Below are positions 2,802 through 28,032 of a DNA stretch of 42,974 nucleotides, piece after piece. The DNA comes from a virus. The notes under the pieces were generated by a model. That model saw only the letters and a list, made by a program, of their open reading frames with translations, made no database searches and was not told the origin of the DNA. The stretch covers positions 1 to 42,974 of the IMG/VR virus record IMGVR_UViG_3300005563_000050; one strand, 5' to 3'. A program made the position numbers and the translations under genes. The first letter of the stretch is position 1. Each line of letters opens with the position of its first letter.

Positions 2802-2812
2802 CATACGAGTGT
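2787..2812 (-). terminator. Intrinsic terminator overlapping the capsid promoter
   Basis: Perfect 12-bp inverted repeat: ACACTCGTATGT (2787-2798), AA, ACATACGAGTGT (2801-2812). On the minus strand the hairpin is followed by TTTTAG, with a run of five T including the last stem base, so it has the form of a rho-independent terminator for transcripts arriving from the packaging and scaffold genes. The capsid promoter -35 is inside it, so the same palindrome could also be an operator. Confidence 0.7.
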
Positions 2813-2831
2813 CGGGATAATTTATTCCTGT

Positions 2832-3038: not shown

Positions 3039-3068
3039 ATGTTTATTTGTTTTTTGGTTTACTGCATC

Positions 3069-3944
3069 TTACGAGGGAGCGACCTCACCCTTGGGAGTCG
3101 CGACCTTGAAGAGATTCTGCCACTGTTGAACAGCGGCCTTATGACCCGGATGATCACGGTTCGTTAGAGCTGACTGGAAATCCTTGTCAGTCTTCAGACG
3201 ATTGATTTCCTGCGTTGCGCGAGTAGCATCAGTGATCTGCAATGCATCACCAGCATTACCACCACGCGACTTGTCCTCCATCATGGCCGCACCGATGCGG
3301 GCCAGGGACTTGATTAGGCGGGGATCGTTACCGCCCTGCTCCTGGATGTAAGTCATCAGAGACTCATCACCGAATTTGGTGACCACTGCCTTAGCGAGAT
3401 CGAGATTTGCATCATACTTGTCACCCCACTCGCTCTTGAGGGCGGTCTCAGCCTCGATGCGTTTCTGCTCAGCAGTTTGTTGCTGCATCTTGGCAACCTC
3501 CATCTCACCCTCGAGATAACTCTTGAGGATGGGCTCCGCCTGACGCTGGGTGAGACCCGCCTTGTGGAGGACTTCAGCAGTCTTCTTCCAGCGGGGATCA
3601 TCAGTCTTAATCTCCGGAAGTCCATCGATCTTCGGTGGGACGTATGCGTCAGGAGTCTTCGGACGGCCAGCAGCTTCATAGAAGCCATTCCACTCATTGT
3701 CACCCCACGTGGGAAGCGGTGCCTCAACGCGCTTGGCGCCAATCATCTTCTGGGCATGCACATACCCCTTGGCCAATGTCGCGGCATCAGTCATGTTGTG
3801 CAGACACTTCTCAGTCTGCAAATCAGCCGGCAACCCCTTGACGAAATCATTCAATGGCGGAGTGCCACCAGCCGGAGGTTGACCACCACCATTACCACCC
3901 TCAGGTGGTGCTGCGTCGCGTAGGATTCTGCGGTATGTGTTCAT
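3069..3944 (-). CDS. Scaffolding/capsid assembly protein
   Basis: A 291-residue acidic and helical protein directly before the capsid module, where T7-like phages encode the scaffold (gp9 role: internal template for procapsid assembly, absent from the mature virion). The N-terminal region is Gly/Pro-rich (EGGNGGGQPPAGGTPP). The middle has WGDNEWNGFYEAAGRPKTPDAY and a long helical stretch with AEPILKSYLEGEMEVAKMQQQTAEQKRIEAETALKSEWGDKY, typical of phage scaffold proteins. The C-terminus has DHPGHKAAVQQW. The start at 3944 overlaps the stop of the Bbp19-like gene by 4 bases. Confidence 0.8.
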   Translation of the reverse strand: MNTYRRILRDAAPPEGGNGGGQPPAGGTPPLNDFVKGLPADLQTEKCLHNMTDAATLAKGYVHAQKMIGAKRVEAPLPTWGDNEWNGFYEAAGRPKTPDAYVPPKIDGLPEIKTDDPRWKKTAEVLHKAGLTQRQAEPILKSYLEGEMEVAKMQQQTAEQKRIEAETALKSEWGDKYDANLDLAKAVVTKFGDESLMTYIQEQGGNDPRLIKSLARIGAAMMEDKSRGGNAGDALQITDATRATQEINRLKTDKDFQSALTNRDHPGHKAAVQQWQNLFKVATPKGEVAPS

Positions 3945-4237
3945 AATTGGATTCCTTGTTCTTGTAGTTGTTTTTCGATCTCTCTTATTCTGTCGCTATG
4001 GTTTGTTTTTGCCATCTTGAGGATTGACAGCGCCAACCGGCGACTGCCCTCATTCAAGATGGTTTGCTCGGGATCTCCCCTCACAAAAGTGGTTTCAGTG
4101 GCAAACCCATTCTTGAGGATGTCCTCAAGAACAAGTTGCCCCTCTGGTGTCCCAAATACTTGGGCATAGGACTGGTGGCGTCGACGTCTCCTCATCAGGA
4201 TGTCAACCATCTTGTCGAATTTTTCAACGATGTCCAT
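3941..4237 (-). CDS. Bbp19-like small head protein
   Basis: A 98-residue protein with YAQVFGTPEGQLVLEDIL, then TTFVRGDPEQTILNEGSRRLALSI, the signature of the small Bbp19-type proteins found between portal and scaffold genes in podoviruses. The function in the family is not firmly known. A basic run (MRRRRRHQ) precedes the conserved part and the C-terminus is a short coiled coil (DRIREIEKQLQEQ). It follows the portal stop with only 2 bases between and overlaps the scaffold start by 4. Confidence 0.7.
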   Translation of the reverse strand: MDIVEKFDKMVDILMRRRRRHQSYAQVFGTPEGQLVLEDILKNGFATETTFVRGDPEQTILNEGSRRLALSILKMAKTNHSDRIREIEKQLQEQGIQL

Positions 4238-4239
4238 GA

Positions 4240-5838
4240 TTATTGGGCTTGTGCGTCAGACACATTCTTGAGAGCCTTACTGATTGGCTCCGCAGTTTGT
4301 GCGAGTTGCTGCATCTGGGCGGCCTGTTGTTTCTGTTGGCGCAAATTCGCCAAGTCCTCAGGACTGCGAAGCATGCGCTTCGGCACTCCACGAGCGATTG
4401 CCAGCATCTGAGCGGTCGCATCCAAATCAACAGCATCCAAGACATCGGGATTGATCTGGGCGAGTGGCGCCAAATCATTGATGAACCGACTGATTGTCAC
4501 AGCCTTAGCCCCAGATTGGGCGATAGCGGCCGGACTCAGATAGCCAACCTTGAGCTTGGCATTGCTGATCTGCATTGGGGCAGGTGGAATCAGGCCATGT
4601 GAGTCAAGCAAGTGGTAACTGCGAGAGATCATTGGAGCCAGGAGCTCAGAGGCTATGCGTCCAAAGATTGGTGCCAATAGGCGCAATTTCTCATCGCGAC
4701 GATCTTGCACCTCATACGCCGTCATCTCCACGTTGTCCTTCTCCATGCGAATCCAATCGGAGTAGAAGCACTGCTTGATGAACTTGCGCTTTTGCTCGCA
4801 CTTCTCCTCAGCCCACGGTAAATTTGCGCCAGTGATGAGAGGTTCGATCTTTGCCTCCTCATTCTCGCGATAGATCAAACTGCCTGGACTCGTCTTGATG
4901 GGAAGCATGAATGACTCATGCGTGAGCACCAGAGGCGGGTCAGTGATCTTTTGCCCTGCCTTCAGGACAGTCTTCTCCATGGTGTTCAGCATCTTGATGT
5001 CAGGCAAGCACTGCTTAGCGGGACTGCGACCATACACCTCACCAGCGAGTTTAGTCCACCGGGCGACATGGTATGGAAAACTATCATACCCCGACTCAAG
5101 GAGTGTTTCATGTGTGGTAGCACACACCCAAATACTTGCGATGGGCTTATTCTTCGCATTCAACTTGCGAGGATTGCGGTCCTCACGAGGCCCAACCCAG
5201 TGAACCACATCAAATAACTTGTCTGGGTCGTCAGAATACTTCATGACGCCCGCAGGAATTTCACCAAACTCCTGTTGAATTTGGCGAAGGGTCCATGCGA
5301 AATATCTGCACACTGAGTCAATGCGCCCCTTACTGTTCTCAGTGAAGTAGCACATCTGTAGGGGGCGAGCTGCGAACACAATACTCCTGGTGTCTTGGTC
5401 CCACTCTTGATTCAGCACGCAAGTGCCAAATGAGCCAATGTCCATGTAAGCCTCATGCAGGGCGAGGTTGATCATGGACCCCTCACGCTGGTAGTGCGTG
5501 TAGATCAGATCACTCACTGTCTGCAGCCACTCAGTGACTGATGGGTCCTGAGACCACGGATTATCACCCTCGAGCTGAATGTCAAACCAACGCTCGGCCG
5601 GATTGCTCAGATATGAGTGCAGTGCGGAGGCAAGCTCACCAAGCGCACTAGGCGCCGTGCCATCATACATTGTTTCCGGCATCACAGTGTAGAACTGCAA
5701 TTGCGGGCTGAATGACGCGTATTGAGTGATTGGCCTGACGAAATACCGAACGTCCTGCCAATCTGTCTCAAATGGAGCACGAATGCTGCGCATCTTATCG
5801 AAGCGCTGCATCACGAAACTGGCAGTTGGGTCAGTCAT
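4240..5838 (-). CDS. Portal protein (head-tail connector, T7 gp8 type)
   Basis: A 532-residue portal subunit; twelve would form the ring at one vertex through which DNA is packaged and ejected. Family features are DWQDVRYFVRP near the N-terminus, DGTAPSALGELASALHSYLSNPAERWFDI, the long middle with FGTCVLNQEWD and FPYHVARWTKLAGEVYGRSPAKQCLPDIKMLNTM, and a Gln-rich helical C-terminus (QQKQQAAQMQQLAQT). The length matches podovirus portals (about 530-560). The open frame extends upstream, but the start at 5838 is one base after the stop of the preceding small gene and gives the normal N-terminus. Confidence 0.92.
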   Translation of the reverse strand: MTDPTASFVMQRFDKMRSIRAPFETDWQDVRYFVRPITQYASFSPQLQFYTVMPETMYDGTAPSALGELASALHSYLSNPAERWFDIQLEGDNPWSQDPSVTEWLQTVSDLIYTHYQREGSMINLALHEAYMDIGSFGTCVLNQEWDQDTRSIVFAARPLQMCYFTENSKGRIDSVCRYFAWTLRQIQQEFGEIPAGVMKYSDDPDKLFDVVHWVGPREDRNPRKLNAKNKPIASIWVCATTHETLLESGYDSFPYHVARWTKLAGEVYGRSPAKQCLPDIKMLNTMEKTVLKAGQKITDPPLVLTHESFMLPIKTSPGSLIYRENEEAKIEPLITGANLPWAEEKCEQKRKFIKQCFYSDWIRMEKDNVEMTAYEVQDRRDEKLRLLAPIFGRIASELLAPMISRSYHLLDSHGLIPPAPMQISNAKLKVGYLSPAAIAQSGAKAVTISRFINDLAPLAQINPDVLDAVDLDATAQMLAIARGVPKRMLRSPEDLANLRQQKQQAAQMQQLAQTAEPISKALKNVSDAQAQ

Positions 5839-12123: not shown

Positions 12124-13173
12124 ATGTATAGCCGAGACTTCAAACCAATGTTAGCTGCATCCCTAGTCAGTCCTAGGGACAGCGATGAAATGCTTCATAA
12201 GCAACTACGCTCCCTAAGATACCCTGTTCTCGCGACGCCGAAGCTGGACGGTATCAGGTGTGTGACTACGCCAGGCGCTGAGGTCCTATCTCCCATCGAG
12301 TTCCACCACTTTATTGCCTACAATCAGATTCCTCATAATCAGGCAGCAATCGCCCAGCCGACATCCATGCCACTGTGTCGGTCATTGAAGCGTGTGCCTA
12401 ATGATTACATCCGCCATCGCATCAGCACCTGCATCCCATACATCGATGGTGAGATCATGACGTATAGCGAGAGGGACCTCCTAGACAACATCTGTCGGCC
12501 CAGGGACTTTCATGCCATACAATCAGATGTTATGGCCCACGCCGGACGTCCCAACTTCAAGTTCCATGTATTTGATTGCAATATCGACCGAGACAGTAGT
12601 CCACTGTTACTGCAATACACGGAGCGAGTGAAGATGTTGGAGCAGCTTGAGTTGCCTTCATTCTGTGTCAAGGTCTTGCCAACCCGGTGTGACAGCCCTG
12701 AGGAGTTGCAGGCATTCATGGCCAAGTGCATCGCTGATGGTCACGAGGGCATATGCTTTAGGGATATGCTCCACTCGCCATACAAGTATGGCAGATCGAC
12801 ATTCAGGCAGGGGTGGCTCATCAAGTGGAAGTTATTCGCCACATCAGAGGCAGTGGTTGTGGCCTTCGAGGAGGAGATGCAGAACAATAACGTCCCTGTC
12901 ATCGGCTTGCTTGGCCAACAGGAGCGGAGCAGCCACCAGGAGAATATGGTTGGTAAGAATAGATTAGGTGCGTTCGTGGTTGAGCTGATGATTGATCGAG
13001 AGATCAAGTTCAAGATTGGCACTGGGTTCACCGATCAGATGCGTGAGGAGTTCTGGCTCAACAGGGACGCTATGGTGGGCAAGATCGTTACTTTCAAGCA
13101 CCAGGCGTATGGGGAGAAGGAGGCGCCTCGCATACCAGTCTTTGCGGGAATCAGGTCGCCAATCGATATGTGA
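12124..13173 (+). CDS. ATP-dependent DNA ligase
   Basis: A 349-residue ligase of the short T7 type that seals nicks during replication. Nucleotidyltransferase motifs in order are KLDGIR with the AMP-accepting Lys near residue 40 (motif I), YIDGEIM (motif III), HEGICFR (motif IV) and LIKWKLF (motif V). The C-terminal OB-fold part includes VELMIDREIKFKIGTGFTD and GKIVTFKHQAYGEKEAPRIPVFAGIR, the usual ligase ending. Length agrees with T7 ligase (about 360). The ATG follows a structured intergenic hairpin with no Shine-Dalgarno. Confidence 0.92.
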   Translation: MYSRDFKPMLAASLVSPRDSDEMLHKQLRSLRYPVLATPKLDGIRCVTTPGAEVLSPIEFHHFIAYNQIPHNQAAIAQPTSMPLCRSLKRVPNDYIRHRISTCIPYIDGEIMTYSERDLLDNICRPRDFHAIQSDVMAHAGRPNFKFHVFDCNIDRDSSPLLLQYTERVKMLEQLELPSFCVKVLPTRCDSPEELQAFMAKCIADGHEGICFRDMLHSPYKYGRSTFRQGWLIKWKLFATSEAVVVAFEEEMQNNNVPVIGLLGQQERSSHQENMVGKNRLGAFVVELMIDREIKFKIGTGFTDQMREEFWLNRDAMVGKIVTFKHQAYGEKEAPRIPVFAGIRSPIDM

Positions 13174-14517: not shown

Positions 14518-15492
14518 ATGAACGCAAATGGCAAATCAGTCGACAAGACATATCTCAGCATCGATAACGCTGAAGATCGTGGCTTCATTCATCGTGATTA
14601 CATCGCTCATTGCTTGCGGTGGACGCACGTTATCAAGCGCCTGTATGAGCGAAAGCTATACCAGACGGCGCGGATTCTTGACATTGGGTGTGGGCGAGAA
14701 CTTCCTTTCGCAAAGACCCTATATTCCTCCAAGCTCGCCCCGGCGATCTACCTCGGAGTTGATGTCGGACCTATCCTCGATGAGGAAGTTGCCAAGATCG
14801 CCAAGACCCAGAAGTTCCCACACAAGTTGTGGGAGAATACGAACTTCCTGGAACTGACTCAGGAGGATGTAGCAGTTCTTCGCGAAATGGGAACATCAGA
14901 ACCTGGTAAATCTCACATGGAAGCTGGTGCTTTTGATCTACCCAACCTCATCACCTGCTTCGAGGTCCTCGAGCACGTCGAGCCCAAGATGATGTTCGCC
15001 ATGCTTGAGCATATGAAGCACTTGACCTCTGACGATGCACGCTTCTTCATCTCCACGCCGTGCTGGAACCGTGTCGACTGCGCGGCCAATCATGTTAACG
15101 AGATGCTCTACGAGTCCCTGGGTGCCGCATTTGAGCGCCATGGATTCATCGTGGAGAATGTCTATGGGACATTCGCATCGATCAGGGACTATGAGCATCA
15201 CCTTAAAGGAGCACATGGAATGTGGCCATCAGGTGAAGATGGTAGAGGAACACCAGATATTCGTGAAGTGTTTAACCAGCTTCGTGAATACTATGATACG
15301 AACTTTCTGTCATGCATCTTCGCACCACTGTTCCCAGCACAATCGCGCAACTGCCTATGGGAGTTGAGGAAAGACCCATCTCATCACCAATTGGTTGATA
15401 AAGCACAACCACACCACCGTAAATTTGCTCCCATTGAAACCATCCAACAACCCTGGTCCAGCAGCCAACTCTGGAATGACATGGCACTTTAA
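14518..15492 (+). CDS. Class I SAM-dependent methyltransferase-like protein
   Basis: A 324-residue protein with the Rossmann methyltransferase signature: motif I ILDIGCGRE (residues 53-61), an acidic residue after the second strand in YLGVDVGP, and the motif IV/post region LITCFEVLEHVEPKMMFAMLEH followed by FFISTPCWN. This resembles small-molecule or sugar/protein methyltransferases of type 11/12 more than DNA methyltransferases, because no DPPY or PC catalytic motif of DNA enzymes is visible. The substrate is unknown. It is first in a tight cluster with nucleotide-pool enzymes. Expression may be controlled by the alternative hairpins directly upstream. Confidence 0.7.
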   Translation: MNANGKSVDKTYLSIDNAEDRGFIHRDYIAHCLRWTHVIKRLYERKLYQTARILDIGCGRELPFAKTLYSSKLAPAIYLGVDVGPILDEEVAKIAKTQKFPHKLWENTNFLELTQEDVAVLREMGTSEPGKSHMEAGAFDLPNLITCFEVLEHVEPKMMFAMLEHMKHLTSDDARFFISTPCWNRVDCAANHVNEMLYESLGAAFERHGFIVENVYGTFASIRDYEHHLKGAHGMWPSGEDGRGTPDIREVFNQLREYYDTNFLSCIFAPLFPAQSRNCLWELRKDPSHHQLVDKAQPHHRKFAPIETIQQPWSSSQLWNDMAL

Positions 15493-15496
15493 TACT

Positions 15497-15892
15497 ATGA
15501 GAGGAATCGCCGAAGACGTCGTTGACTTCCACAAGAAGTTCAATATTCACTATGATGGACCTCCCCGCCTTCTCCCACCAAATGAGAAGTATTTCCGCCA
15601 TCAGCGGAATGAGGAGGAATCCAAGGAACTGTATCATGCCACCACCCGTGAGGAGGCAATCGATGCAATCGTGGATCAGATCTACATTCTGCTCGGCACT
15701 GCCCACCTCCATGGGTTCACGCCGGCCATGCTCCAAGAGGCGTGGGCGAGAGTTCACAAGGCTAACATGACCAAGATGCTCAGCACTCCTGAGTTTCCTG
15801 GTAAGTATGGTCAGGTGGGTATCGACATCGTGAAGCCCAAGGGGTGGGTCGCACCGGATCACTCCGATCTGTTTGGAGGTCACCATGCCTAA
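15497..15892 (+). CDS. MazG/HisE-like nucleoside triphosphate pyrophosphohydrolase
   Basis: A 131-residue all-alpha protein with the metal-binding pattern of this superfamily: EEESKEL, then EEAIDAIVDQIYILLGTAHLHGF (E-x2-E and D-x3-D equivalents), then AWARVHKANMTKM. Relatives split (d)NTPs into NMP and pyrophosphate. It starts 4 bases after the methyltransferase stop and overlaps the kinase start by 8 bases. In its context, upstream of a kinase and a thymidylate-synthase-family enzyme, a dCTPase- or dUTPase-like role that supplies the dNMP substrate is plausible. I chose 15497, not an upstream ATG at 15395 that lies inside the methyltransferase. Confidence 0.7.
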   Translation: MRGIAEDVVDFHKKFNIHYDGPPRLLPPNEKYFRHQRNEEESKELYHATTREEAIDAIVDQIYILLGTAHLHGFTPAMLQEAWARVHKANMTKMLSTPEFPGKYGQVGIDIVKPKGWVAPDHSDLFGGHHA

Positions 15893-16412
15893 GATCATTG
15901 TCCTCGAGGGAGTTGACTCCACAGGAAAGTCATCCTTGGCCAAGCTATTCGCCAAGGAGCTGAATGCCTGCTACTTTCACGCGTCTGGCCACAAGACCAT
16001 GCACTTCGCCATGACTGCTCATCACATGTCCATGCTCCACGACATCGAGGTGAACCTCGAACAGGGGCGTGATGTGGTCTGTGATCGTCACTGGATGAGC
16101 GAGATCGCATATGCCAGTGTTCTGCGCCCTGAGCAGTTCGCTTGGTATAAGAAGAGTGAGATCTTCAACCGCATCAGCAAGCTATCTCCTCGATACGTGC
16201 ACTGCTGTGGTGACATCCACACGTGCTTCGAGCGGTATGAGCGGACTCACGCTGATCACGACAGGTCCCTGTTCCACCACCTCACATTTGATCAGTATAA
16301 GGACATTGCCATGAACTACCTGCACCTGTTCATGGATATTCCGCACCATGTCTACTCCATCGAGGAGAACGGTATGCGGCAACTTGAACTACTTGAGAAA
16401 GTGATCGCATGA
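15885..16412 (+). CDS. Deoxynucleoside monophosphate kinase (thymidylate kinase-like)
   Basis: A 175-residue P-loop kinase. Motifs: GVDSTGKS (residues 9-16) for the phosphate loop, CDRHWMSEIAYA with the DR pair typical of the thymidylate kinase family, and a lid-like segment with HADHDRSLFHH. It phosphorylates a dNMP to the dNDP with ATP; the base preference cannot be read from the sequence. The start has a strong GGAGGT 4 bases upstream and overlaps the preceding gene. It shares an ATGA overlap with the thymidylate-synthase-family gene, which suggests it acts on that enzyme's product. Confidence 0.8.
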   Translation: MPKIIVLEGVDSTGKSSLAKLFAKELNACYFHASGHKTMHFAMTAHHMSMLHDIEVNLEQGRDVVCDRHWMSEIAYASVLRPEQFAWYKKSEIFNRISKLSPRYVHCCGDIHTCFERYERTHADHDRSLFHHLTFDQYKDIAMNYLHLFMDIPHHVYSIEENGMRQLELLEKVIA

Positions 16413-17218
16413 ACACAAATGAGATTTACATGGGCCTGATCAGGGACTGCATTAGCTGTGGCGATGAGGTTAGTCCTCGTGGGCAGCTGAGTCATGAGCT
16501 CATTCAGAACAACGAGGCCTTCAACATGGAGAGTCCGATCATTACCATTGAGGAGCGTGGTCTGGATTACCAGTTTATGGCCGCTGAGGCGTATTGGATT
16601 CTCACTGGCCAGCGACATCTCGACGAGTTTGTCAAGAAGAATCTGATCAAATACTCGGACGATGGCGAGACAATGTATGGCGCGTATGGCCCGCCGTTTG
16701 TGGCTCAGGTAGATGGCGTGGTGTCTAAGCTGTTGGCAGACCCAGACACCCGTCAGGCGGTCATCAGCATCTGGCGCCCCAATCCTGATAACAGCAAGGA
16801 TATCCCATGCACGGTGGGCATGCAATTCCTATTGCGCAATGGCCGCATCCACACCAATGTCTGGATGCGAAGCCAGGACGTGTGGCTGGGATTGCCTTAT
16901 GATCTGTTTACCTTCACGATGATGACCGCAATGATTCGTGCCAGAATAAACAGTCACCTTGAGGAGATGCATCCAAAATACACGCTTGGCTTCATCAACA
17001 TCACTGCTGGCTCAAGACACCTCTACAATCGCCACGTGGAGGTCTCTCAAGATCTGAGCGCAACTTGGCACCACTCCAGTGACCACGGGGAAAAATTAGT
17101 CTTAGACTATACTAAGATAAATAATCCTGATTCACTCCTACTTGCGCTAGACATATCTAGGAGAGCCCTAGCACATAACTATGTTGACACCTTAAGGTCA
17201 CAACTATGCCTTCAATAA
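16409..17218 (+). CDS. Thymidylate synthase-family enzyme, candidate dCMP hydroxymethylase
   Basis: A 269-residue member of the ThyA / pyrimidine hydroxymethylase family. The catalytic cysteine is Cys134 in IPCTVGMQF, the phosphate-binding Arg is in MRSQDVW (154-157), and HLY (204-206) is present in GSRHLYNRH. Two points favour cytosine: the residue that is Asn in thymidylate synthases (LGLPFN) is Asp165 here (LGLPYD), the known dCMP-specific substitution of T4 gp42, and the motifs PCT, MRSxDV and GSxHxYxRH resemble T4 gp42 more than ThyA (PCH, QRSCD, GDTHLY). In the family the enzyme uses methylene-tetrahydrofolate to add hydroxymethyl (or methyl) at C5. It overlaps the kinase gene and sits just before DNA polymerase. 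Confidence 0.8.
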   Translation: MNTNEIYMGLIRDCISCGDEVSPRGQLSHELIQNNEAFNMESPIITIEERGLDYQFMAAEAYWILTGQRHLDEFVKKNLIKYSDDGETMYGAYGPPFVAQVDGVVSKLLADPDTRQAVISIWRPNPDNSKDIPCTVGMQFLLRNGRIHTNVWMRSQDVWLGLPYDLFTFTMMTAMIRARINSHLEEMHPKYTLGFINITAGSRHLYNRHVEVSQDLSATWHHSSDHGEKLVLDYTKINNPDSLLLALDISRRALAHNYVDTLRSQLCLQ

Positions 17219-17421
17219 CCAATCCAGCGCACGTGTGTCGCGCGTGCCATAATCAATATCTCCCACATGAGTTGGTTGATGGAAATCGCCTCAAGCGGGG
17301 TATTTGTTTTGCCTGTCTACTGAATGAAAATCGCAGTTTACAGCGTGAACTTCGCAAACTAAAATCTTCCATAAGAATTAAGAATCATGGCAAGAAAACG
17401 CATAGACTTCGCAAAAGCTGA
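17206..17421 (+). CDS. Small zinc-finger-like protein
   Basis: A 71-residue basic protein with two CxxC pairs (VCRACHNQYLP and GICFACLLNE, residues about 10-37) that could form a zinc ribbon, followed by a Lys/Arg-rich helix (RSLQRELRKLKSS) and a basic tail. It overlaps the preceding gene by 13 bases and the DNA polymerase gene by 35 bases, and it contains the polymerase promoter. The overlaps lower confidence, but the cysteine pattern supports a real gene. Confidence 0.55.
   Translation: MPSITNPAHVCRACHNQYLPHELVDGNRLKRGICFACLLNENRSLQRELRKLKSSIRIKNHGKKTHRLRKS
17337..17365 (+). promoter_or_regulatory. Promoter 6, upstream of DNA polymerase
   Basis: -35 TTTACA (17337-17342), 17-bp spacer, -10 TAAAAT (17360-17365). 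Expected start near 17372, a leader of about 15 bases before the polymerase ATG at 17387. It lies inside the small zinc-finger gene. Confidence 0.65.
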
Positions 17422-19330
17422 TGGACTCCAAGGAGGATTGTTCATGCCAGCCTCAGACTGGCGACCACCCACGAGCTTTCCTGACCTTAGTGGTGAGAAG
17501 ATCATCGGCTTGGACATCGAATCAAGGGATCCTAATCTCATCACGAAAGGACCTGGTTTTATACGCGGAGATGCTAATGTTGTTGGAGTCTCACTGGCGA
17601 CAACTGATGCTGCTTGGTATTTCCCCATTGGGCATCTGGGAGGAGGAAACATGGACCGTGGAGCAGTGTGTCGATTCCTTGAAGATGTGTTATCGGTGCA
17701 AGATCGAGCTGTTTGCGGGGCAAACCTTCAATACGAGCTTGAGGGCCTCGACTCTATCAAAATTGCGATCAAGAGTAAGTTACTTGATGTCCAAATCGCT
17801 GAAGCCCTCATCGACGAGGAGTCCGAATCCACTCGGCTAGAGGCACTCTGCCAGAAATACCTGAAGGGCGGCAAGGATGAGTCCCTGATGAACAATGCCG
17901 CTGAGGCACATGGCTTTGGCAAAGATGTGAAAGGAAACTTATGGAAGCTACACTCGAAATACGTGGGGCCTTATGCGGAATACGACGCCCAGGCTCCTTT
18001 ACTCATCTTCAAGGCACAATTAGAGACACTGCGGGCAGAAGGGTTAGAGTCCATATTCACATTGGAGAGCAAGTTACTTCCGTTACTCTTTCAGATGCGC
18101 CGCCGGGGTATAAGGATGGACCTGGAGCGCGCAAAAAGTTTATCCAAAAAGTTAGCTCTAGAAGAGAATACGCTGCGCTCGGAGATGAACTCTAAGTATG
18201 GTTGCAAGATTGACGAGTGGTCTGGCGGACAACTCGCCATGCAATGCGATAAGTTGGGTATTCGCTATCCGCGGACTGAGGCGGGGAATCCCAGCTTCAC
18301 TGCTGACTTCATCGAGGGAACTATTCACCCATTCCTGGATGATGTGTCAGATCTTCGTGAGTTGAGTAAGCTTCGCAAGACTTTCGTTGATGGCTGGATT
18401 CTTGACAATGCTGTTGGTGATTACATCCACCCACAGTGGAGGCAGATTGCCACTGATGAGGGTGGGACGCGAACTGGTCGCATGGCTGCGGCGAATCCCA
18501 ACCCACAGCAGATACCAGCTGGTAAGTATCGTAAGACTGGCAAGCCAAATAGCATTGGAGCTGAGATCAGGGCATGCTTCATTCCACATGACAAGAATAT
18601 GCGGTGGATGAAGGCTGACTACTCTGAGCAGGAGCCTCGCATTCTCACGCACTTTGCCGCGCTGTGCGGCTTCGATGGTGCTGCTGAAGTCCAACGCAAG
18701 TATCAGGAATCCAGAGACTTTAAGATTTACCCGTTCATGATGGAGATCAGCGGACTGGACAAGCGCCCAGCAAAGGACTGCTACCTCGGGCGATGCTACG
18801 GAATGGGAATCAATAAGCTCGCCTACAAGTTCAACAAGTCCAAGGAGGAGGCGCAGGAAATCCTCAATAAGTTTGACGCGGGCGTCCCATTCGTGAAGCA
18901 AATCGCCGACTCTGCCATGGCAACAGCCCAACGACGAGGTTACGTCAAGACCCTGTTGGGCCGACGTCGACACTTTGAGTTGTGGGAGCCAGTTCTGAGC
19001 TTCAAGTTACGCCAGCAGGGAATTGATTGCACACCTGTCAGGCTGAAGGATGCCGCCGATAAGTGGCATGGGCTAAAGTTGCAGCGTGCCAATACTCACA
19101 AGGCGCTCAACTCGATAATTCAGGGCTCAGGGGCTGACATGGCTAAGGCTGCCATGGTTGCGAATTGGGAGCAGCACAGTGAACTCCCATACATGCAGGT
19201 TCATGATGAGTTGAATCATGGTGTGTATGATCAGGAGCACGCTAATAAACTACACAAAGTGATTGAGACGTGTGTCGATATGAATGTTCCCATCCTGTCG
19301 AACATGACGATAAAGGACCATTGGACTTAA
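17387..19330 (+). CDS. Family A DNA polymerase with 3'-5' exonuclease
   Basis: A 647-residue replicative polymerase. The exonuclease domain has the Exo I DIE (43-45), an Exo II-like region GANLQYELEGL (111-121), and Exo III YAEYD (196-200). Polymerase motifs: RTGRMAAANPNPQQIP (362-377), motif A DYSEQEPR (411-418), O-helix KDCYLGRCYGMG (463-474) with the essential Lys, and motif C VHDE (605-608). The position equal to E. coli Pol I Phe762 is Leu467 here, and Arg754 of Pol I is replaced by Lys459. Viral Pol I with Leu at this site has been linked in the viral ecology literature to slower or temperate lifestyles. There is no 5'-3' exonuclease domain, as in T7 polymerase. Confidence 0.95.
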   Translation: MARKRIDFAKADGLQGGLFMPASDWRPPTSFPDLSGEKIIGLDIESRDPNLITKGPGFIRGDANVVGVSLATTDAAWYFPIGHLGGGNMDRGAVCRFLEDVLSVQDRAVCGANLQYELEGLDSIKIAIKSKLLDVQIAEALIDEESESTRLEALCQKYLKGGKDESLMNNAAEAHGFGKDVKGNLWKLHSKYVGPYAEYDAQAPLLIFKAQLETLRAEGLESIFTLESKLLPLLFQMRRRGIRMDLERAKSLSKKLALEENTLRSEMNSKYGCKIDEWSGGQLAMQCDKLGIRYPRTEAGNPSFTADFIEGTIHPFLDDVSDLRELSKLRKTFVDGWILDNAVGDYIHPQWRQIATDEGGTRTGRMAAANPNPQQIPAGKYRKTGKPNSIGAEIRACFIPHDKNMRWMKADYSEQEPRILTHFAALCGFDGAAEVQRKYQESRDFKIYPFMMEISGLDKRPAKDCYLGRCYGMGINKLAYKFNKSKEEAQEILNKFDAGVPFVKQIADSAMATAQRRGYVKTLLGRRRHFELWEPVLSFKLRQQGIDCTPVRLKDAADKWHGLKLQRANTHKALNSIIQGSGADMAKAAMVANWEQHSELPYMQVHDELNHGVYDQEHANKLHKVIETCVDMNVPILSNMTIKDHWT

Positions 19331-21333: not shown

Positions 21334-21636
21334 ATGAAATCACGTGTGTATGTAATTCAAGACTCCCCAGGCAAGAACTTGGAACCCGCCAAGGCGTATG
21401 GTGATCTCACCATCATGCTCACCGGTAAGGAAACCAACGGTGAGGGTGCAGAGAAACTTCAAGCCCATCTTGGTGAGTTCACCAGCAAGGACTACATCTT
21501 GCTGATTGGCAAACCCACTTTCATTGCGATGGCATGCATCTATGCCGCACTCATGCTCGACGATGGTGATGTCTTGCAGGTCCTCGTGTGGGATCGCGAT
21601 CACTACGTCTACAACGTGGAGAAAATCTTATGCTAA
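21334..21636 (+). CDS. Unknown alpha/beta protein
   Basis: A 100-residue protein that starts an operon with the strongest promoter. The order of strands and helices (RVYVIQDS, DLTIMLTGKE, DYILLIGKPTFIAMACIYAALML, DVLQVLVWDRDHYVYNVEKI) suggests a compact alpha/beta domain. I do not recognise a named family, but similar small proteins are common next to ssDNA-binding genes in podoviruses. It overlaps the next start by 7 bases. Confidence 0.6.
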   Translation: MKSRVYVIQDSPGKNLEPAKAYGDLTIMLTGKETNGEGAEKLQAHLGEFTSKDYILLIGKPTFIAMACIYAALMLDDGDVLQVLVWDRDHYVYNVEKILC

Positions 21637-22172
21637 CAAACGTGCTCACAGGCGAGGAGATAACCCTCGAACAGTTGAACCCAATCTCCCAGATGGTGGC
21701 GAATCAAGCAAAACTAGAGCGAGAAATCGCCCTCAAGCAGGAGGAACTTCAGACGATGTCAGATCGCTTGAAGACCCTGTCTGAGCAACTCATCCCTGAG
21801 GCCATGCTTGCCATCGGCTTGAGTGAGTTGAAACTCGCATCTGGTGAATCTGTAACCATCAAGAAGTATTACTCTGCCAGCATCCCAGCTGATAAGTTGT
21901 TTGAAGCTATCGCATGGCTTCGTAAGACTGGCAACGATGACATCATCAAGAATACCGTGAGCCTACAGTTTGGCAAGGGCGAGGACGAGCGGGCGAATAA
22001 GCTCGCTGAGGACCTGCGTAAACAGGGGCTCACACCTGAGCAGAAAATTTTCGTGCATCCCATGACTCTGAAGTCCTTCGTGAAGGAGCGCATCGAGTCA
22101 GCACAAGAGCTTCCACTAGACATGTTTGGTGTCTATGTGGGGAACAAGACAGTAATCAAGCAGCCGAAATAA
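21630..22172 (+). CDS. Unknown protein with N-terminal coiled coil, paired with SSB
   Basis: A 180-residue protein. It begins with a coiled coil (ANQAKLEREIALKQEELQTMSDRLKTLSEQL, residues about 23-53), followed by an alpha/beta part (ELKLASGESVTIKKYYSASIP, KLFEAIAWLRKTGNDDIIKNTVSLQFG) and a helical C-terminus. It directly precedes the ssDNA-binding gene with 4 bases between. Proteins of this build often accompany the SSB in podoviruses; a role in replication or recombination is inferred from context. The start at 21630 overlaps the previous stop. Confidence 0.6.
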   Translation: MLTNVLTGEEITLEQLNPISQMVANQAKLEREIALKQEELQTMSDRLKTLSEQLIPEAMLAIGLSELKLASGESVTIKKYYSASIPADKLFEAIAWLRKTGNDDIIKNTVSLQFGKGEDERANKLAEDLRKQGLTPEQKIFVHPMTLKSFVKERIESAQELPLDMFGVYVGNKTVIKQPK

Positions 22173-22176: not shown

Positions 22177-22965
22177 ATGGCAAAAGAAACAAAAACACCA
22201 GGAGCACCTGCAGTGGTGCCCAAGCAAGAACTCACAACGTTCGATTACTCCTCCACTGGAGTGACCGGATTTGAAGCAACCCAACAGGCGGATTTGGGGA
22301 TTCCATTCCTCAGCATCCTCCAGTCTGGGTCTCCGCAGATCAAGAAGACTGACCCCAACTATGCGCTCAAGAAGATCGAGGGCGCCGGTGAGGGCGACAT
22401 CATCAACACGCTGTCGAACTCAGTCATCTACACGCAGGGTCGTGACCCCATCAAGGTGATTCCGTGCTATCACGAGCGCCGGTTCGTTGAGTGGAAACCT
22501 CGCAACTCTGGTGGCGGCATCGTGAAGATGCACACCAATGCGGCGATCATCAATGAGTGCAAGCGCAATGAGAAGAATCAGGACGTTCTTCCCAATGGCA
22601 ACATCATCGTCACGACCGCTTACTTCTATGTGATCGTCCTCGGCGGTGACGAGCCGCGTCCCGCAATCATCGGGCTGTCCTCAACGCAGTTGAAGAAGGC
22701 CCGCGGTTGGTTGAACATGATGATGGCTATCAAGCTCACTGGGCCTGGTGGTCAATTCACTCCTCCCATGTTCTCCCACATCTACAACATCAGCACTGTC
22801 GCCGAGAGCAATCAGGACGGCAGCTGGTTTGGTTGGAAGGTGGAACTCGCCGGTCAGCTGAATGATAAGACGCTGATCGAGAAAGCTATCCAGATGGCTA
22901 AGGACTCCGCTGCTGCGGCTCGCACTGTCCTGCCCACTGACTCGGCTGACGACCATCTCGCCTAG
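22177..22965 (+). CDS. ssDNA-binding protein (podovirus type)
   Basis: A 262-residue protein with family traits: a short disordered N-terminus, TGFEATQQADLGIPFLSILQSGSPQIKKTDPNY, then VIPCYHERRFVEWKPRNSGGGIV, and YNISTVAESNQDGSWFGWKVEL, ending in an Ala-rich segment with an acidic tip (DSADDHLA). An acidic C-terminus is typical of SSBs, where it contacts polymerase and helicase. It coats single-stranded DNA during replication. It starts in the recurring TAACACTATG context without a Shine-Dalgarno. Confidence 0.75.
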   Translation: MAKETKTPGAPAVVPKQELTTFDYSSTGVTGFEATQQADLGIPFLSILQSGSPQIKKTDPNYALKKIEGAGEGDIINTLSNSVIYTQGRDPIKVIPCYHERRFVEWKPRNSGGGIVKMHTNAAIINECKRNEKNQDVLPNGNIIVTTAYFYVIVLGGDEPRPAIIGLSSTQLKKARGWLNMMMAIKLTGPGGQFTPPMFSHIYNISTVAESNQDGSWFGWKVELAGQLNDKTLIEKAIQMAKDSAAAARTVLPTDSADDHLA

Positions 22966-23052: not shown

Positions 23053-24579
23053 GTGAGAGAGCTTGTTCCTGATTTAATGTTATTGTTCGATGGTTACCGT
23101 TCCACTTACGGAACCTACAGCACAGATCTGGTAGATCAAGGTGGAGGAAAGATGAAGGGCATTGCGTCAACGGTTAAGGGCGAGGTCACAGTTGAGCTGT
23201 GGACCAAGCACCTTGTTGGTAAGCAAGCCCTCGGGATTATACCGATCGATGAGACATCTAGAGTGAAGTTTGCAGCCATAGACATCGATGAATATCCACT
23301 TGATCTGCAGAAGCTGAATGCTGATATCCAACGTCTGAAGTTACCACTAGTCCTATGCAGGACTAAGTCTGGTGGTGCACACCTGTATGTGTTTCTTGAG
23401 ACGTTTCACGATGCTGCAGTTGTAACCAAGAAGATGCGCGACATAGCCGCGACACTTGGTTATGGCAATGCTGAGATCTTCCCAAAGCAGACCAAGTTGA
23501 TAGCTGAGCGGGGCGATGTGGGGTCTTGGATTAACATGCCATATTTTAACTCAGCTAATACAGACCGGTATGCCTTGGATGATACTGGAAAGCCCCTTAA
23601 TTTCACTGAGTTCATGGTGTATGCGAGATCTAAGATATGCACACCTAATGAGCTTGCAAACAACAAGGCTTCCACAGCTGAGTTACTACCAGGTGGGCCA
23701 CCATGCCTGAATCATCTGTGCTCGATGGGATTTCCAGCTGGCACACGCAATAACGGGTTATTCAATATCGGGGTATACGCCCAGAAGGTGCATGCTGAAC
23801 ATTGGGAGCAGTATCTTCACAAGTATAACCTCGAGTTCATGAATCCTCCGCTCGATACCAGCGAGGTCATGGGCGTCATCAAGTCACTGAAGAAGAAGGA
23901 GTTCAGCTACACTTGCAAGCAAGTCCCTGTCTCCAACTACTGTAACATGCCGAAGTGCCGCCAATGCAAGCACGGTATTGGTGGCAGTGACATGGGCATG
24001 CCTAAGTTCGGCAGCCTCACGAAGATCTTATCAGACCCACCAGTGTGGTTCCTGGAGGTCGAGAGTGGTGGTCGATTGGAGTTGTCTACCGATGACTTGC
24101 AATCAGCGAGAAACTTTCAGAATCGTTGCATGGCCCTACTGAATGTGATGCCAATCATTCCCAAGCCACAGGACTGGCAGGAGATTATTCACAACCTGCT
24201 TAAGGAAGTGACAGAAGTTCCAATACCGTTTGAAGCCACTGTCAAGGGCCAAGTGTGGCACAATCTGGAAGATTTCCTGACTGGTCGAGTCCAAGCCAAG
24301 GTCGTCGATGACTTAGCCTTCGGTAAGCCATACTACCATAATGGGTTCTATTACTTTCGGCACAGGGACTTCCTGGACTATCTTGATCGTAAGAAGTGGC
24401 GTGGTTGTCCACCACACTCGATTGCTGTATACTTCAATGAGTGGGGATTTGAGAAGAAGTTCTGGAATGTTAAGGGCAAGGGAATTAACACCTATGTCGT
24501 GGGCGATGATAAGTTCAATAAGATCGCAGGTAAGATGGATGTTCCCGCAATACCATCCCCTGAGAAGGCACTGTCATGA
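23053..24579 (+). CDS. Archaeo-eukaryotic-type primase (AEP)
   Basis: A 508-residue primase, which makes the RNA or DNA primers for replication. Catalytic motifs of the AEP fold are FAAIDIDEY (Asp77 and Asp79, DhD), KSGGAHLYVF (His110) and NAEIFPKQTKL. The middle region matches the accessory domain of phage AEPs: GGPPCLNHLCSMGFPAGTRNNGLFNIGVYAQ, PPLDTSEVMGVIKSLKKKEFSYTC and CNMPKCRQCKHGIG, with six cysteines (about 218, 223, 288, 297, 302, 305) that may bind zinc or an Fe-S cluster. The start is GTG at 23053 with GAGAGG 6 bases upstream. No TOPRIM primase or DnaB-type helicase domain is present. Confidence 0.85.
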   Translation: MRELVPDLMLLFDGYRSTYGTYSTDLVDQGGGKMKGIASTVKGEVTVELWTKHLVGKQALGIIPIDETSRVKFAAIDIDEYPLDLQKLNADIQRLKLPLVLCRTKSGGAHLYVFLETFHDAAVVTKKMRDIAATLGYGNAEIFPKQTKLIAERGDVGSWINMPYFNSANTDRYALDDTGKPLNFTEFMVYARSKICTPNELANNKASTAELLPGGPPCLNHLCSMGFPAGTRNNGLFNIGVYAQKVHAEHWEQYLHKYNLEFMNPPLDTSEVMGVIKSLKKKEFSYTCKQVPVSNYCNMPKCRQCKHGIGGSDMGMPKFGSLTKILSDPPVWFLEVESGGRLELSTDDLQSARNFQNRCMALLNVMPIIPKPQDWQEIIHNLLKEVTEVPIPFEATVKGQVWHNLEDFLTGRVQAKVVDDLAFGKPYYHNGFYYFRHRDFLDYLDRKKWRGCPPHSIAVYFNEWGFEKKFWNVKGKGINTYVVGDDKFNKIAGKMDVPAIPSPEKALS

Positions 24580-25031
24580 AACAGCCAAGAATACTAGCAT
24601 TCATGCAGAACCCATGGTTTGAGCCTGGCACTCGCCCGGAGATCATTGACCGCTATAAGACAGATCAGGAATTCCACAGGCGACTACTCGCGAGAACAAT
24701 GAGCGGTCAACGACTATTAACTGCGTTCGGACCCACGATGTTCATGGAGATCTGGTGGGATAATGTCGCCCCCAAGGCGGCAGTTGAGGCAGCTGGAGTG
24801 ACTGACATCGACATGCAGCATGTGGACAAGTTGATTTGCGACTATAAGCCAGACATCATATTGGCTTTTGGAAAGCTCGCAGAAAAAGCATTGGATAATT
24901 CATTTTATGCGGAACTAATACCTTACTTTTGTTGCCACCATCCCAACGCTCGTGGTTACACGATGCTTGATTTGGCAGCATTCGCAGTGCAGATAACTGA
25001 CTGGATCAATGAATGGAGATTACAACAATGA
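24576..25031 (+). CDS. Uracil-DNA glycosylase-fold protein (tentative)
   Basis: A 151-residue protein overlapping the primase by 4 bases and the helicase start by 4 bases. Segments resembling the UDG superfamily are FMQNPWFEPGT near the N-terminus (first substrate loop), PDIILAFGKLAEKAL (strand before the central helix) and CCHHPNARG (final His-Pro loop). The conserved catalytic residues of any one UDG family are not all obvious, so it could be an inactive or divergent relative. It lies between primase and helicase, so it probably acts on phage DNA. Confidence 0.4.
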   Translation: MKQPRILAFMQNPWFEPGTRPEIIDRYKTDQEFHRRLLARTMSGQRLLTAFGPTMFMEIWWDNVAPKAAVEAAGVTDIDMQHVDKLICDYKPDIILAFGKLAEKALDNSFYAELIPYFCCHHPNARGYTMLDLAAFAVQITDWINEWRLQQ

Positions 25032-26536
25032 ACGAAGCTAACATACTATTTGGGCCACCTGGAACGGGGAAGACGACCACCCTCCTGTCCGTGGTGAACA
25101 TGAAGATCAAGGACGGTATTCCACCAGATCAGATCTGCTTCATCTCATTCACTCGCAAGGCAGCCAATGAGGCGAAGTGGCGCGCCATGGAGCGGTTCAA
25201 GCTCACAGATGAGCAGCTCCCATGGTTCAGGACTCTGCACAGCTTGGCATTCCAACAAATGGGAATGAACAAGAATAGCGTGATGGGTCTGGGCGACTGG
25301 ATTAAGTTGTCGCAAATTTTGAATCTCACGATCACATACAAGACGCTGTCAGATGATGGAACATTCGCTGGGCAGACGTTGGGTGATCGACTATTCTTCG
25401 CTGAGAACATGGCACGTGCGCGCATGATTCCACTGAAGGAGTATTGGGAATCATTACCAAATGAGGACATACTGTGGCATGAACTTGAGCGTCTTGCGGC
25501 TGCCCTTGAGCAGTATAAGATCGCTCATAATAAGGTGGATTTCACGGACATCATCCACATGTTCATCGAGTCTGGCCAAGCACCTGGATGCCAAGTCCTG
25601 ATCGTGGATGAAGCACAAGATCTCAGCCCACTACAATGGAGGATGGTCGAGCGGTTACGTGAACTCATACCAGAGTCATATGTCGCAGGTGATGATGATC
25701 AGGCAATCTTTCGTTGGGCTGGTGCTGATGTGGACCATCTCATTAAGCTCCCTGGCCAGCAGACAGTCCTAGGCAAGAGCTTCCGAGTTCCCAAGAAGGT
25801 GCAGGAGGTTGCCAACACCATCACTAAGCGCATCAAGTATCGCGTTGAGAAGGAGTGGGATGCCAGGGACGAGGATGGGGTGGTTGAGCGTGTCACAGAT
25901 GTTAGTCAGATCGACATGAGCCATGGAACGTGGCTGTTACTTGGCAGGAATAACTTCCTATTGGATAAGTATATCGACCATTGCATGCGCAGTGGTTACG
26001 TGTTTGATTGCCCACGAGACACCACGGTGAAGCGTGAGTCGTTCATTGCGATTCGTGATTGGGAAAAGTTGCGCAATGGTCAGGAGATCTTCGCCTCATC
26101 CGTGAAGTTGATATATGATCTGATCTCTGTTCGTGTCGGTATCACGTATGGATTCAAGGGCAAGGTGGACACCTTGCCAGATCGTCGTCTAATGACCATG
26201 ACTGAGTTGCGTGAGCAGTTCGGACTCTGCACCACGAAGCCATGGAATGAGGCGCTCGATAAGATGCCTGACATGGAGCGGGCATACTTCGTTGAGGCGA
26301 TCCGCAAGGGCGAGAAGTTTGACGCTGAACCTCGCATTAAGATTTCCACCATACATGGTGCCAAGGGTGGTGAGGCACAGAACGTCGTAATCCAGACTGA
26401 CATGGCGTATCGCACCTACAAGGAGATGGAGTTATCTCCTGATGATGAGCATCGGGTGTGGTATGTGGCCGTAACCCGAGCTAAGCATAGGTTGGTGATT
26501 GTATCACCACAGACTAATCTGAGTTATGACATTTAG
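25028..26536 (+). CDS. UvrD/Rep-type SF1A DNA helicase
   Basis: A 502-residue helicase that starts in an ATGA overlap with the previous gene. Motifs in order: GPPGTGKTTT (motif I, residues about 9-18), SFTRKAANE (Ia), VDEAQDLSPLQW (II), AGDDDQAIFRWAGAD (III), SFRVPKKV (IV), ISTIHGAKGGEAQNVV (V) and WYVAVTRAKHRLV (VI). It unwinds DNA 3' to 5' with ATP. It is shorter than bacterial UvrD (about 720). In a genome without a replicative DnaB-type helicase it may be the main fork helicase or a recombination helicase. Confidence 0.92.
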   Translation: MNEANILFGPPGTGKTTTLLSVVNMKIKDGIPPDQICFISFTRKAANEAKWRAMERFKLTDEQLPWFRTLHSLAFQQMGMNKNSVMGLGDWIKLSQILNLTITYKTLSDDGTFAGQTLGDRLFFAENMARARMIPLKEYWESLPNEDILWHELERLAAALEQYKIAHNKVDFTDIIHMFIESGQAPGCQVLIVDEAQDLSPLQWRMVERLRELIPESYVAGDDDQAIFRWAGADVDHLIKLPGQQTVLGKSFRVPKKVQEVANTITKRIKYRVEKEWDARDEDGVVERVTDVSQIDMSHGTWLLLGRNNFLLDKYIDHCMRSGYVFDCPRDTTVKRESFIAIRDWEKLRNGQEIFASSVKLIYDLISVRVGITYGFKGKVDTLPDRRLMTMTELREQFGLCTTKPWNEALDKMPDMERAYFVEAIRKGEKFDAEPRIKISTIHGAKGGEAQNVVIQTDMAYRTYKEMELSPDDEHRVWYVAVTRAKHRLVIVSPQTNLSYDI

Positions 26537-26601: not shown

Positions 26602-28032
26602 ATGATTAAAAATATCCCGTTATCAACGGCTGATCACAAGCATGTGATGGAGCCGATGCATCACCAGAAGTCAACACTGGAAGTGAGTAAGGATATGCCT
26701 TACTATGCGATATGGTGGGAGATGGGAACTGGCAAATCTAAGACCCTGATTGACACCTACTCATGGCTATTCCTGAAGCGGGAAATTGATGGTGTGATTA
26801 TCATCTCAGACAAGGGAGCTTACCTCAACTGGCCCATCACTGAGATTCCAGCCCATCAAATGAAGGAAATCCCTCATAGAATATCAGTGTGGAACTCTGG
26901 CAAGAAGTGCCCAGATCTCATTGGTCAGGACGACATGCTAGACATCCTAGTCATGAATGTCGAGGCCTTCAGTAGTGAGCGTGCACTTGAGCATGCCATC
27001 AGATTCACTGAGTCGCACTACTGCCTGATCGCTGTTGATGAGGCGACAAGCATCAAGAACATCAAATCCGAGCGAACTAAGAACCTAATCAGTCTCGGAA
27101 GACTGTGTGACTATCGTCGCATCTTGACTGGCACTCCCATCACTCTGAGTCCCCTGGACCTATTCAGCCAATGCGAATTCCTCCAGCCAGGATTGCTGGG
27201 GCACAGGACCTTTGTGGGATTCCGTAATGAGTATGCTGAGATGAGAACCATGTGCTTTGGTAGTCGAAGCTTTCAGCAGATTGTTGGTTATCGTAATCTT
27301 GATAAGCTCACCAAGAAGATTGAGCCGTTCAGCTCTCGAGTCCTCAAGAAGGATTGCTTGGACTTGCCAGATAAGGTGTATGAGACTGTGTATGTGGAGC
27401 AGACCGCAGAGCAGCGTAAGCTGTATGATGATCTGAAGACTTATGCGATGAGTCAGTTTGAGCAGGGGTTGCTGACATCCACCTCTGCAATCACCACGAT
27501 CAATAAGCTTCACCAGATAAACTGCGGTCATGTTAAGTTGGATGATGGGACATGCATCGATATTCCAAATAATCGCATACCAATGCTGTTGGAACTCATC
27601 GAGAAGATTCCCGGGAAGGTATTGATCTGGTGCGCTTTTCAGCGGGACGTTCAGTTAATTGTTGAGGCACTAACTAAAGTAAAAAGAAAACCAGTTCACT
27701 ATTATGGCGACACGTCGACAGAGGATAGGGCAGAAGCGTTGCAACGATTCTGTCACGGAGATGCTACGGACTTTGTTGGCACTTCGGCAACAGGTGGAAA
27801 AGGTCTTACCCTCATACAAGCAACTACGACTATTTACTACAGCAACTCGGACTCGGCTGAAGACAGATGGCAATCCGAGGATCGTAACCATCGTAAGGGA
27901 CAAACGAACCAAGTGACTTACTTCGACATGGTGGTCCCCAACACCGTTGATTCCAAGATCTTGAAGGCCTTGAAACGAAAAGAGGACCTGGCGTTCCAGG
28001 TCCTCGATAAGTTCCGCGACTACCTAGGGTGA
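26602..28032 (+). CDS. SNF2-family SF2 DNA-dependent ATPase/helicase
   Basis: A 476-residue ATPase of the SNF2 group. Motifs: WWEMGTGKSKT (Walker A, residues 38-48), VDEATSIKN (II, near 145-153), ILTGTPI (III), GKVLIWCAFQRDV (IV), SATGGKGLTLIQATTTIYY (V) and EDRNHRKGQ (VI, near 424). In phages such enzymes translocate on duplex DNA and act in replication, recombination or restart. The last gene of the plus block, it ends tail to tail with the exported-protein gene, the two stops overlapping in a 9-base stretch. A 65-base gap before it shows no clear promoter. Confidence 0.92.
   Translation: MIKNIPLSTADHKHVMEPMHHQKSTLEVSKDMPYYAIWWEMGTGKSKTLIDTYSWLFLKREIDGVIIISDKGAYLNWPITEIPAHQMKEIPHRISVWNSGKKCPDLIGQDDMLDILVMNVEAFSSERALEHAIRFTESHYCLIAVDEATSIKNIKSERTKNLISLGRLCDYRRILTGTPITLSPLDLFSQCEFLQPGLLGHRTFVGFRNEYAEMRTMCFGSRSFQQIVGYRNLDKLTKKIEPFSSRVLKKDCLDLPDKVYETVYVEQTAEQRKLYDDLKTYAMSQFEQGLLTSTSAITTINKLHQINCGHVKLDDGTCIDIPNNRIPMLLELIEKIPGKVLIWCAFQRDVQLIVEALTKVKRKPVHYYGDTSTEDRAEALQRFCHGDATDFVGTSATGGKGLTLIQATTTIYYSNSDSAEDRWQSEDRNHRKGQTNQVTYFDMVVPNTVDSKILKALKRKEDLAFQVLDKFRDYLG

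Follow-up and report, generated by a model that had tools for sequence, protein, structure and literature searches.

In the 5-hydroxymethylcytosine (hmC) route of bacteriophage T4, the proteins gp56, gp42 and gp1 serve as pyrophosphatase, deoxycytidine monophosphate (dCMP) hydroxymethylase and monophosphate kinase, and the resulting hmC is decorated by a further enzyme, a glucosyltransferase. The decorations of hydroxymethylpyrimidines in phage DNA that were listed in late 2025 are glycosylation, amination and carbamoylation only (PMC12783734). The MetaGPA study ties ThyA-family proteins with Asp at position 177 (E. coli thymidylate synthase numbering), the pyrophosphohydrolase family PF01503 and the ligase domains PF14743 and PF01068 to cytosine-modified phage contigs, a set that further includes PF00383 and a carbamoyltransferase (PMC8670742). 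Here we describe a related cassette in the virus record IMGVR_UViG_3300005563_000050 of IMG/VR, the whole of which (42,974 bases) is referred to as the window, and which was analyzed through a list of its open reading frames (ORFs) and Pfam and PHROG profile scans of its proteins. The hydroxymethylase cassette itself is of a known kind, and its new element is an S-adenosylmethionine (SAM)-dependent methyltransferase (MT). The four genes of the cassette are as follows.

14518..15492, + strand: SAM-dependent methyltransferase (MT), 324 amino acids, with a Hen1/UbiG-like O-methyltransferase fold (PF13489, 2.6e-12)
15497..15892, + strand: PRA-PH/MazG-type all-alpha NTP pyrophosphohydrolase, 131 amino acids, ATG at 15497, candidate dCTPase (PF01503, 4.5e-7; phrog_671, 5.2e-18)
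15885..16412, + strand: thymidylate-kinase-like P-loop kinase, 175 amino acids, candidate hydroxymethyl-dCMP (hmdCMP) kinase (PF02223, 8.4e-11)
16409..17218, + strand: ThyA-family enzyme, 269 amino acids, predicted dCMP hydroxymethylase (PF00303, 8.9e-20)

A first-pass annotation had recognized these genes as a single run, and the run is real, with every ORF where it had been placed and Pfam or PHROG matches for each. The same annotation described the genes as overlapping directly upstream of the DNA polymerase gene. The packing is indeed tight, the pyrophosphatase and kinase genes overlapping by 8 bp and the kinase and ThyA genes by an ATGA, but a 4-bp gap separates the MT and pyrophosphatase genes, and an ORF of 71 amino acids precedes the polymerase gene, so that the stated position next to the polymerase is close to exact. 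The same gene order was found again in MW202510, in Stenotrophomonas phage AXL3, in Pseudoxanthomonas phage PW916 and in many IMG/VR contigs, which excludes a chance arrangement.

Linkage of the methyltransferase to Asp177 ThyA-family genes

Searches of IMG/VR confirmed 333 stretches with related MTs and 464 with the ThyA-family protein, and 80 loci were fetched from each side. On the MT side, an Asp177 ThyA-family gene was present, always on the same strand, in all 69 resolvable viral loci; the other 11 of the 80 have at most 1,577 bases downstream of the MT. An Asp177 ThyA-family gene likewise accompanies the MT in 5 of 5 MT records in the phage collection. On the ThyA side, 67 loci, among them phage records and the window, had adequate flanks, and the MT was found in 56 of them. 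The MT gene lies upstream of the pyrophosphatase gene in most loci and directly after the ThyA-family gene in others, and the linkage therefore survives rearrangement. Within the clade formed by the window, L006 and L017, conservation is higher for the MT (75-80% identity of the window protein to those of L006 and L017) than for the ThyA-family protein (about 50%). In the viral sequences examined, the MT, METHYLTRANSFERASE, is tied to the hydroxymethylase and stands beside Asp177 ThyA-family genes alone. The earlier suggestion that the modified base is a possible target of the methyltransferase is supported, and the present analysis adds to it the tight linkage and a Hen1-like O-methyltransferase signature. 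We consider it likely that the MT acts on hmC in some form.

The loci that lack the MT were compared with those that carry it. In L066 and L078, which are syntenic with the MT-bearing L081 (55-56% identity for the flanking ThyA-family protein and 68-70% for the product of the next gene), the MT and a small ORF are missing between those flanking genes; after the next gene comes one for a DNA alpha-glucosyltransferase, matched over its full length (phrog_2888, 2e-27). The MT-less loci L020, L033, L046 and L057 carry a threonine-dehydratase-like, pyridoxal phosphate (PLP)-dependent enzyme (phrog_7093) and two unknown genes upstream of the ThyA-family gene (in L046, for example, at 1736-4796), possibly a separate pathway of hmC hypermodification. 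Glucosyltransferase or PLP-enzyme sets occur in none of the 56 MT loci and in 5 of the 11 MT-less ones (Fisher p 5e-5, a value inflated by near relatives). Since these sets are never found beside the MT, the MT and an hmC-decorating enzyme of known type behave as alternatives. C5-cytosine DNA-methylase-like genes (PF00145/phrog_116) were also observed near Asp177 ThyA-family genes (L021, L026, L031, L047, L066, L067, L072, L077, L078 and L090), and a gene of this type is the only one that occurs both with and without the MT.

These data bear on the explanation that the phage DNA contains plain hmC and that the MT is a passenger of the operon with a substrate of another kind (RNA ends, for example, or a protein or small molecule). 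The 11 of 67 Asp177 ThyA loci without an MT would fit such an arrangement, as would the RNA 3' ends targeted by Hen1, which among nucleic-acid families sharing the four metal ligands described below is the closest to the MT. A general RNA or protein methyltransferase, however, would have no need to follow a hydroxymethylase, whereas the same-strand linkage holds in 69 of 69 loci despite the varied gene order around the MT, and the MT is missing or excluded where an hmC glucosyltransferase or the PLP-enzyme set is present. A passenger role for the MT is thus unlikely.

Fold and candidate chemistry of the methyltransferase

The AlphaFold model of the MT has a pLDDT of 89. A structure search with this model returned CmoM as the best match (Z 18.0), with several other families within about 1 Z unit and HEN1 at Z 16.4; plant HEN1 has the highest identity, 20%, among the structural matches listed. 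Profile searches matched UbiG and a lysine methyltransferase with scores close to those of the Hen1 chains (8e-8 to 3e-5), and against the UbiG family TIGR01983 the MT reached 24.4 bits, below the cut-off of 102.95. In a viral structure library the MT matched one member of its own family, from an uncultured phage, and no other named function was obtained. HMMER aligned the ExxEH motif of the MT, and a His further along, with the bacterial Hen1 metal ligands Glu, Glu, His and His; in HEN1 this quartet coordinates the Mg2+ to which the hydroxyl to be methylated binds (PMC10781085). The corresponding MT residues are Glu149, Glu152, His153 and His192, none of which varies among about 150 phage MTs.

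The MT thus shares with the Hen1 small-RNA 2'-O-methyltransferases a Class I fold and the ExxEH and distal His at the four metal ligands. Hen1 transfers a methyl group onto a nucleic-acid hydroxyl, and the expected substrate of the MT is a base side chain. The MT differs from Hen1 in its N-terminal HRDYxAHxxRW and C-terminal RNxLW motifs and in having a dCMP hydroxymethylase as its genomic partner. The oxygen that CmoM methylates sits on the side chain at C5 of a uridine in tRNA (PMC12783734). It belongs to a carboxylate, whereas the MT is expected to act on a hydroxymethyl group in DNA, and the two proteins are 13% identical. We tentatively propose, at somewhat less than even confidence, that the MT O-methylates the 5-hydroxymethyl group of hmC. 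In the open-licence literature searched, no description of the expected product, 5-methoxymethylcytosine, in DNA was found.

The link to hmC synthesis would suit any methylation of hmC, and many structural neighbors of the MT are N-methyltransferases. The enzyme could accordingly methylate hmC elsewhere, for example at N4 to give N4-methyl-5-hydroxymethylcytosine. Signs of a DNA N4/N6 or C5 methylase were not found in the MT, however: its Pfam matches are PF13489 and a weak PF08242 only, with no DNA-methylase family among them; the strand-4 motif reads FEVLEH, with neither the DPPY-type motif IV of N4/N6 DNA methylases nor a PC; and the metal-ligand set is that of an O-methyltransferase. Methylation at another position is, in our view, rather improbable.

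The ThyA-family enzyme and restriction of AXL3 DNA

Asp165 of the window ThyA-family enzyme aligns with Asn177 of E. coli thymidylate synthase (TS) and with Asp179 of T4 gp42. The first-pass annotation had noted this Asp in place of Asn together with PCT, MRSxDV and GSxHxYxRH motifs, and all of these are borne out, as PCT, MRSQDV and GSRHLYNRH; the key residues of the enzyme are E60, Y93, R115, D131, C134, R154, S155, D165, H204 and Y206. Position 177 reads uracil (Asn) or cytosine (Asp), the T4 equivalent Asp179 serving in cytosine recognition, and position 143, which precedes the catalytic Cys by three residues, is Asp if water is added (the water-activating Asp145 in T4) and Leu in the methyl-forming TS (PMC6400193). 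The window enzyme and 86 family members were compared in E. coli TS numbering with T4 gp42, E. coli TS, the deoxyuridine monophosphate (dUMP) hydroxymethylase of SP8, and DLP4 and AXL1, the close relatives from which the features of XP12-type enzymes were taken. At positions 143, 147 and 177 the window enzyme has D, T and D, as does T4 gp42, versus L, H and N in E. coli TS, D, N and N in the SP8 enzyme, and N, P and D in DLP4 and AXL1. The D/T/D pattern is present in 85 of the 86 members, Asp177 in 86 of 86 and Asp143 (window Asp131) in 85 of 86. Furthermore, Cys148, Glu60, Tyr96, Arg123 and Ser169 of the T4 enzyme are all matched (window Cys134, Glu60, Tyr93, Arg115 and Ser155), and both enzymes have Thr after the catalytic Cys.

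The best solved-structure match of the window enzyme is the CMP hydroxymethylase MilA (1.2e-18), and the presence of Arg115 and Ser155 at the ribose and phosphate sites that discriminate in MilA (PMC5175136) predicts a preference for the deoxy substrate. Against the TS family TIGR03284 the enzyme scores 54.4 bits, under the equivalog cut-off of 108.35, and the TS marks Asn177 and Leu143 are both replaced by Asp. In the phylogenetic tree the window enzyme groups with those of L006 and L017 (100/97), whereas the XP12-type enzymes of DLP4 and AXL1 group with E. coli TS (99/91), apart from the window clade; the reference branches are long and the deeper joins unsure. The phylogeny suggested earlier as a check thus does not place the window enzyme among true TS. 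The call of a dCMP hydroxymethylase is supported by the residue pattern, the tree position, the score below the TS cut-off and the restriction resistance of the relative AXL3, and on sequence grounds the enzyme very likely converts dCMP to hmdCMP.

In AXL3 the genes follow the order MT, pyrophosphatase, kinase, ThyA-family gene and dCMP deaminase. AXL3 and PW916 share the cassette order with the window (the kinase in AXL3), and their ThyA-family proteins carry KDVPCT and WLGVPYD; they differ in the added dCMP deaminase, a kinase with an extra C-terminal domain, another genome type and MTs about 30% identical to that of the window. Of 37 restriction enzymes tried on AXL3 DNA, 35 failed to cut it, each with G/C in its site, and the 2 that digested it are A/T-only cutters; the source names no modification behind this resistance (PMC7504290). 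KpnI and Eam1105I are among the enzymes that did not cut it (PMC7504290), whereas DNA of the XP12 relative AXL1 was cut, at least partly, by both (PMC9206674), and DNA of XP12, which contains 5-methylcytosine (5mC), was completely digested by KpnI and AhdI (PMC7653180). AhdI is an isoschizomer of Eam1105I. As AXL3 DNA resists KpnI and Eam1105I, which cut 5mC phage DNA, 5mC alone does not account for its modification. The restriction pattern of AXL3 lends independent, if indirect, support to the hydroxymethylase call.

These results argue against an XP12-like dCMP methylase, with 5mC in the phage DNA, even though Asp177 by itself suffices to turn TS into a dCMP-methylating enzyme (literature cited in PMC8670742) and the XP12 relatives also have a neighborhood of pyrophosphatase, deaminase and ThyA-family genes. 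Position 143 is Asp in the window enzyme, as in both hydroxymethylases, and Asn in DLP4 and AXL1; the Pro147 of the latter is Thr135 in the window; they lack the MT; and their enzymes group with true TS. A methylase that oxidizes folate would, unlike a hydroxymethylase, need dihydrofolate reductase (DHFR), and DHFR was found in DLP4 and AXL1 only, with no match in the window or the related loci. Together with the failure on AXL3 DNA of two enzymes that cut 5mC DNA, this makes a dCMP methylase very unlikely. An ordinary TS belonging to an operon for thymidylate supply, the annotation given for AXL3 (PMC7504290), would suit the ThyA fold, the thymidylate-kinase-like neighbor and the dCMP deaminase adjoining in many relatives, but is extremely improbable in view of the Asp found at both 177 and 143 in practically every one of the 86 members, the low TIGR03284 score, the G/C-specific resistance of AXL3 DNA and the thymidylate synthase complementing protein that AXL3 encodes besides (PMC7504290).

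Proposed route, gene neighborhood and implications

The T4-like route of pyrophosphatase, hydroxymethylase and kinase suggested by the first-pass annotation is supported. In the proposed route, the PRA-PH/MazG-type enzyme would hydrolyze dCTP to dCMP, and the ThyA-family enzyme would transfer the one-carbon unit of methylenetetrahydrofolate onto C5 of dCMP with addition of water to give hmdCMP, the step supported by the residues above. The kinase would phosphorylate hmdCMP to hmdCDP, host nucleoside diphosphate kinase would convert this to hmdCTP and the family A DNA polymerase (PolA) would incorporate it, as in T4; PolA would need to accept the modified dCTP. The MT, with SAM and probably a bound Mg2+ or Mn2+, would then O-methylate the hydroxymethyl group at the DNA or nucleotide level, giving 5-methoxymethylcytosine. 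The methyl cap would take the role of the T4 glucose, as a shield against restriction and hmC-specific nucleases. On balance we favor the view that the phage genome receives from the cassette a cytosine that is hydroxymethylated and probably methylated in addition.

Several points weigh against this interpretation. Many of the loci counted above are close relatives, so that the counts overstate independence. The ExxEH...HxxE residues are common to many distant Methyltransf_23 proteins of unknown function, and the metal-ligand set therefore fits metal-dependent O-methylation without proving it and is not diagnostic. Both N- and O-methyltransferases are among the closest folds of the MT, and their Z values differ little. 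The AXL3 resistance does not by itself point to one modified base, and identity between the AXL3 and window MTs is only about 30%. In the ThyA-family enzyme, which has low identity to T4 gp42 and lies on a separate branch, T4 Arg124 is replaced by Gln, and Ser94, part of a proposed hydroxymethylase signature that takes Ser or Thr there, by Gly91 (Gly in 86 of 86 members); the T4 S94A mutant, however, retains about 25% activity (PMC6400193), and the claim that the enzyme works like the T4 hydroxymethylase therefore survives Gly91. Distant MT relatives do not serve as a control for the metal-ligand signature, since the search pattern itself picked ExxEH and most of these relatives keep the distal His too.

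Compared with T4, the window has a PRA-PH/MazG-type pyrophosphatase, a thymidylate-kinase-like kinase and the MT, the last a candidate for the decoration of hmC, versus gp56, gp1 and the glucosyltransferase. The first-pass annotation regarded the MazG-type enzyme in place of gp56 as new; we rejected this, since PF01503 beside Asp177 ThyA has already been reported (PMC8670742) and T4 gp56 likewise falls in the NTP-pyrophosphohydrolase families. The window shares the Asp177 ThyA, PF01503 and PF14743/PF01068 with the MetaGPA contigs, and the carbamoyltransferase of that set was not found among the window ORFs scanned. The main text of the MetaGPA paper makes no mention of the cassette methyltransferase (PMC8670742). 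A MetaGPA origin of the Manatee Spring records labeled as pyrimidine hydroxymethylases was considered and rejected, as MetaGPA sampled sewage and coastal material, and these records were accordingly not counted as evidence for modified DNA.

The cassette is flanked by the following genes.

12124..13173, + strand: ATP-dependent DNA ligase, upstream of the cassette (Pfam PF14743 and PF01068)
17206..17421, + strand: 71-amino-acid CxxC...CxxC protein between the ThyA-family and PolA genes (ORF call; weak Pfam matches only)
17387..19330, + strand: DNA polymerase family A, PolA (PF00476, 1.3e-48)

The ligase gene lies upstream of the cassette in L001 and L006 as well. The 71-amino-acid protein has two CxxC pairs, and L001 has a dCMP deaminase at that position; recognizable dCMP deaminase, DHFR and glucosyltransferase genes were not found in the window. 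The kinase has the P-loop GVDSTGKSS and a DRH motif and matches TIGR00041 at 2.2e-12, under the family cut-off. The kinases of most relatives (for example, L084 5625-5993 and L003 5019-6002) have an extra C-terminal domain of about 120 amino acids, which the window kinase lacks and which had no match in Pfam, PHROG or PDB. The window protein at 24576-25031 was considered as a counterpart of this extension and rejected (3.9% probability in a profile comparison); its AlphaFold model is poor (pLDDT 50).

This protein is the window copy, 9 kb from the MT gene, of a small conserved protein (QNPWFxPxT ... GRRA/GKLA ... HPNA) encoded directly after the MT in L081-type phages (L081, L083, L076 and L049; 7744-8229) and missing together with the MT in L066 and L078. 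It had no family match, and its motifs possibly resemble those of uracil-DNA glycosylases. Additional replication genes of the window encode an AEP/TOTE-type primase with PriCT (23053-24579), a UvrD-like helicase (25013-26536) and an SNF2-like helicase (26602-28032); similarity of the last to the helicase region of Zorya ZorD and of Dpd DpdE probably reflects no more than a common helicase fold. The proteins at 21588-22172 and 22177-22965 are homologues of Pam3 phage gp33 and gp34 (PF23984 and PF23977).

It is possible, although we hold this more loosely than the assignment of the MT reaction, that 5-methoxymethylcytosine is present in the window phage and in a large, mostly uncultured group that includes AXL3, made by a dedicated metal-dependent O-methyltransferase that replaces the glucosyltransferases. 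If true, O-methylation would be a further decoration of hmC and the smallest possible cap, requiring SAM alone, and it would block glucosylation and, probably, nucleases directed at hmC. With 333 MT and 464 ThyA stretches in IMG/VR, the module is widespread, and some of the phages that carry it are already in culture. The MT could serve as a tool to mark or protect hmC in DNA sequencing.

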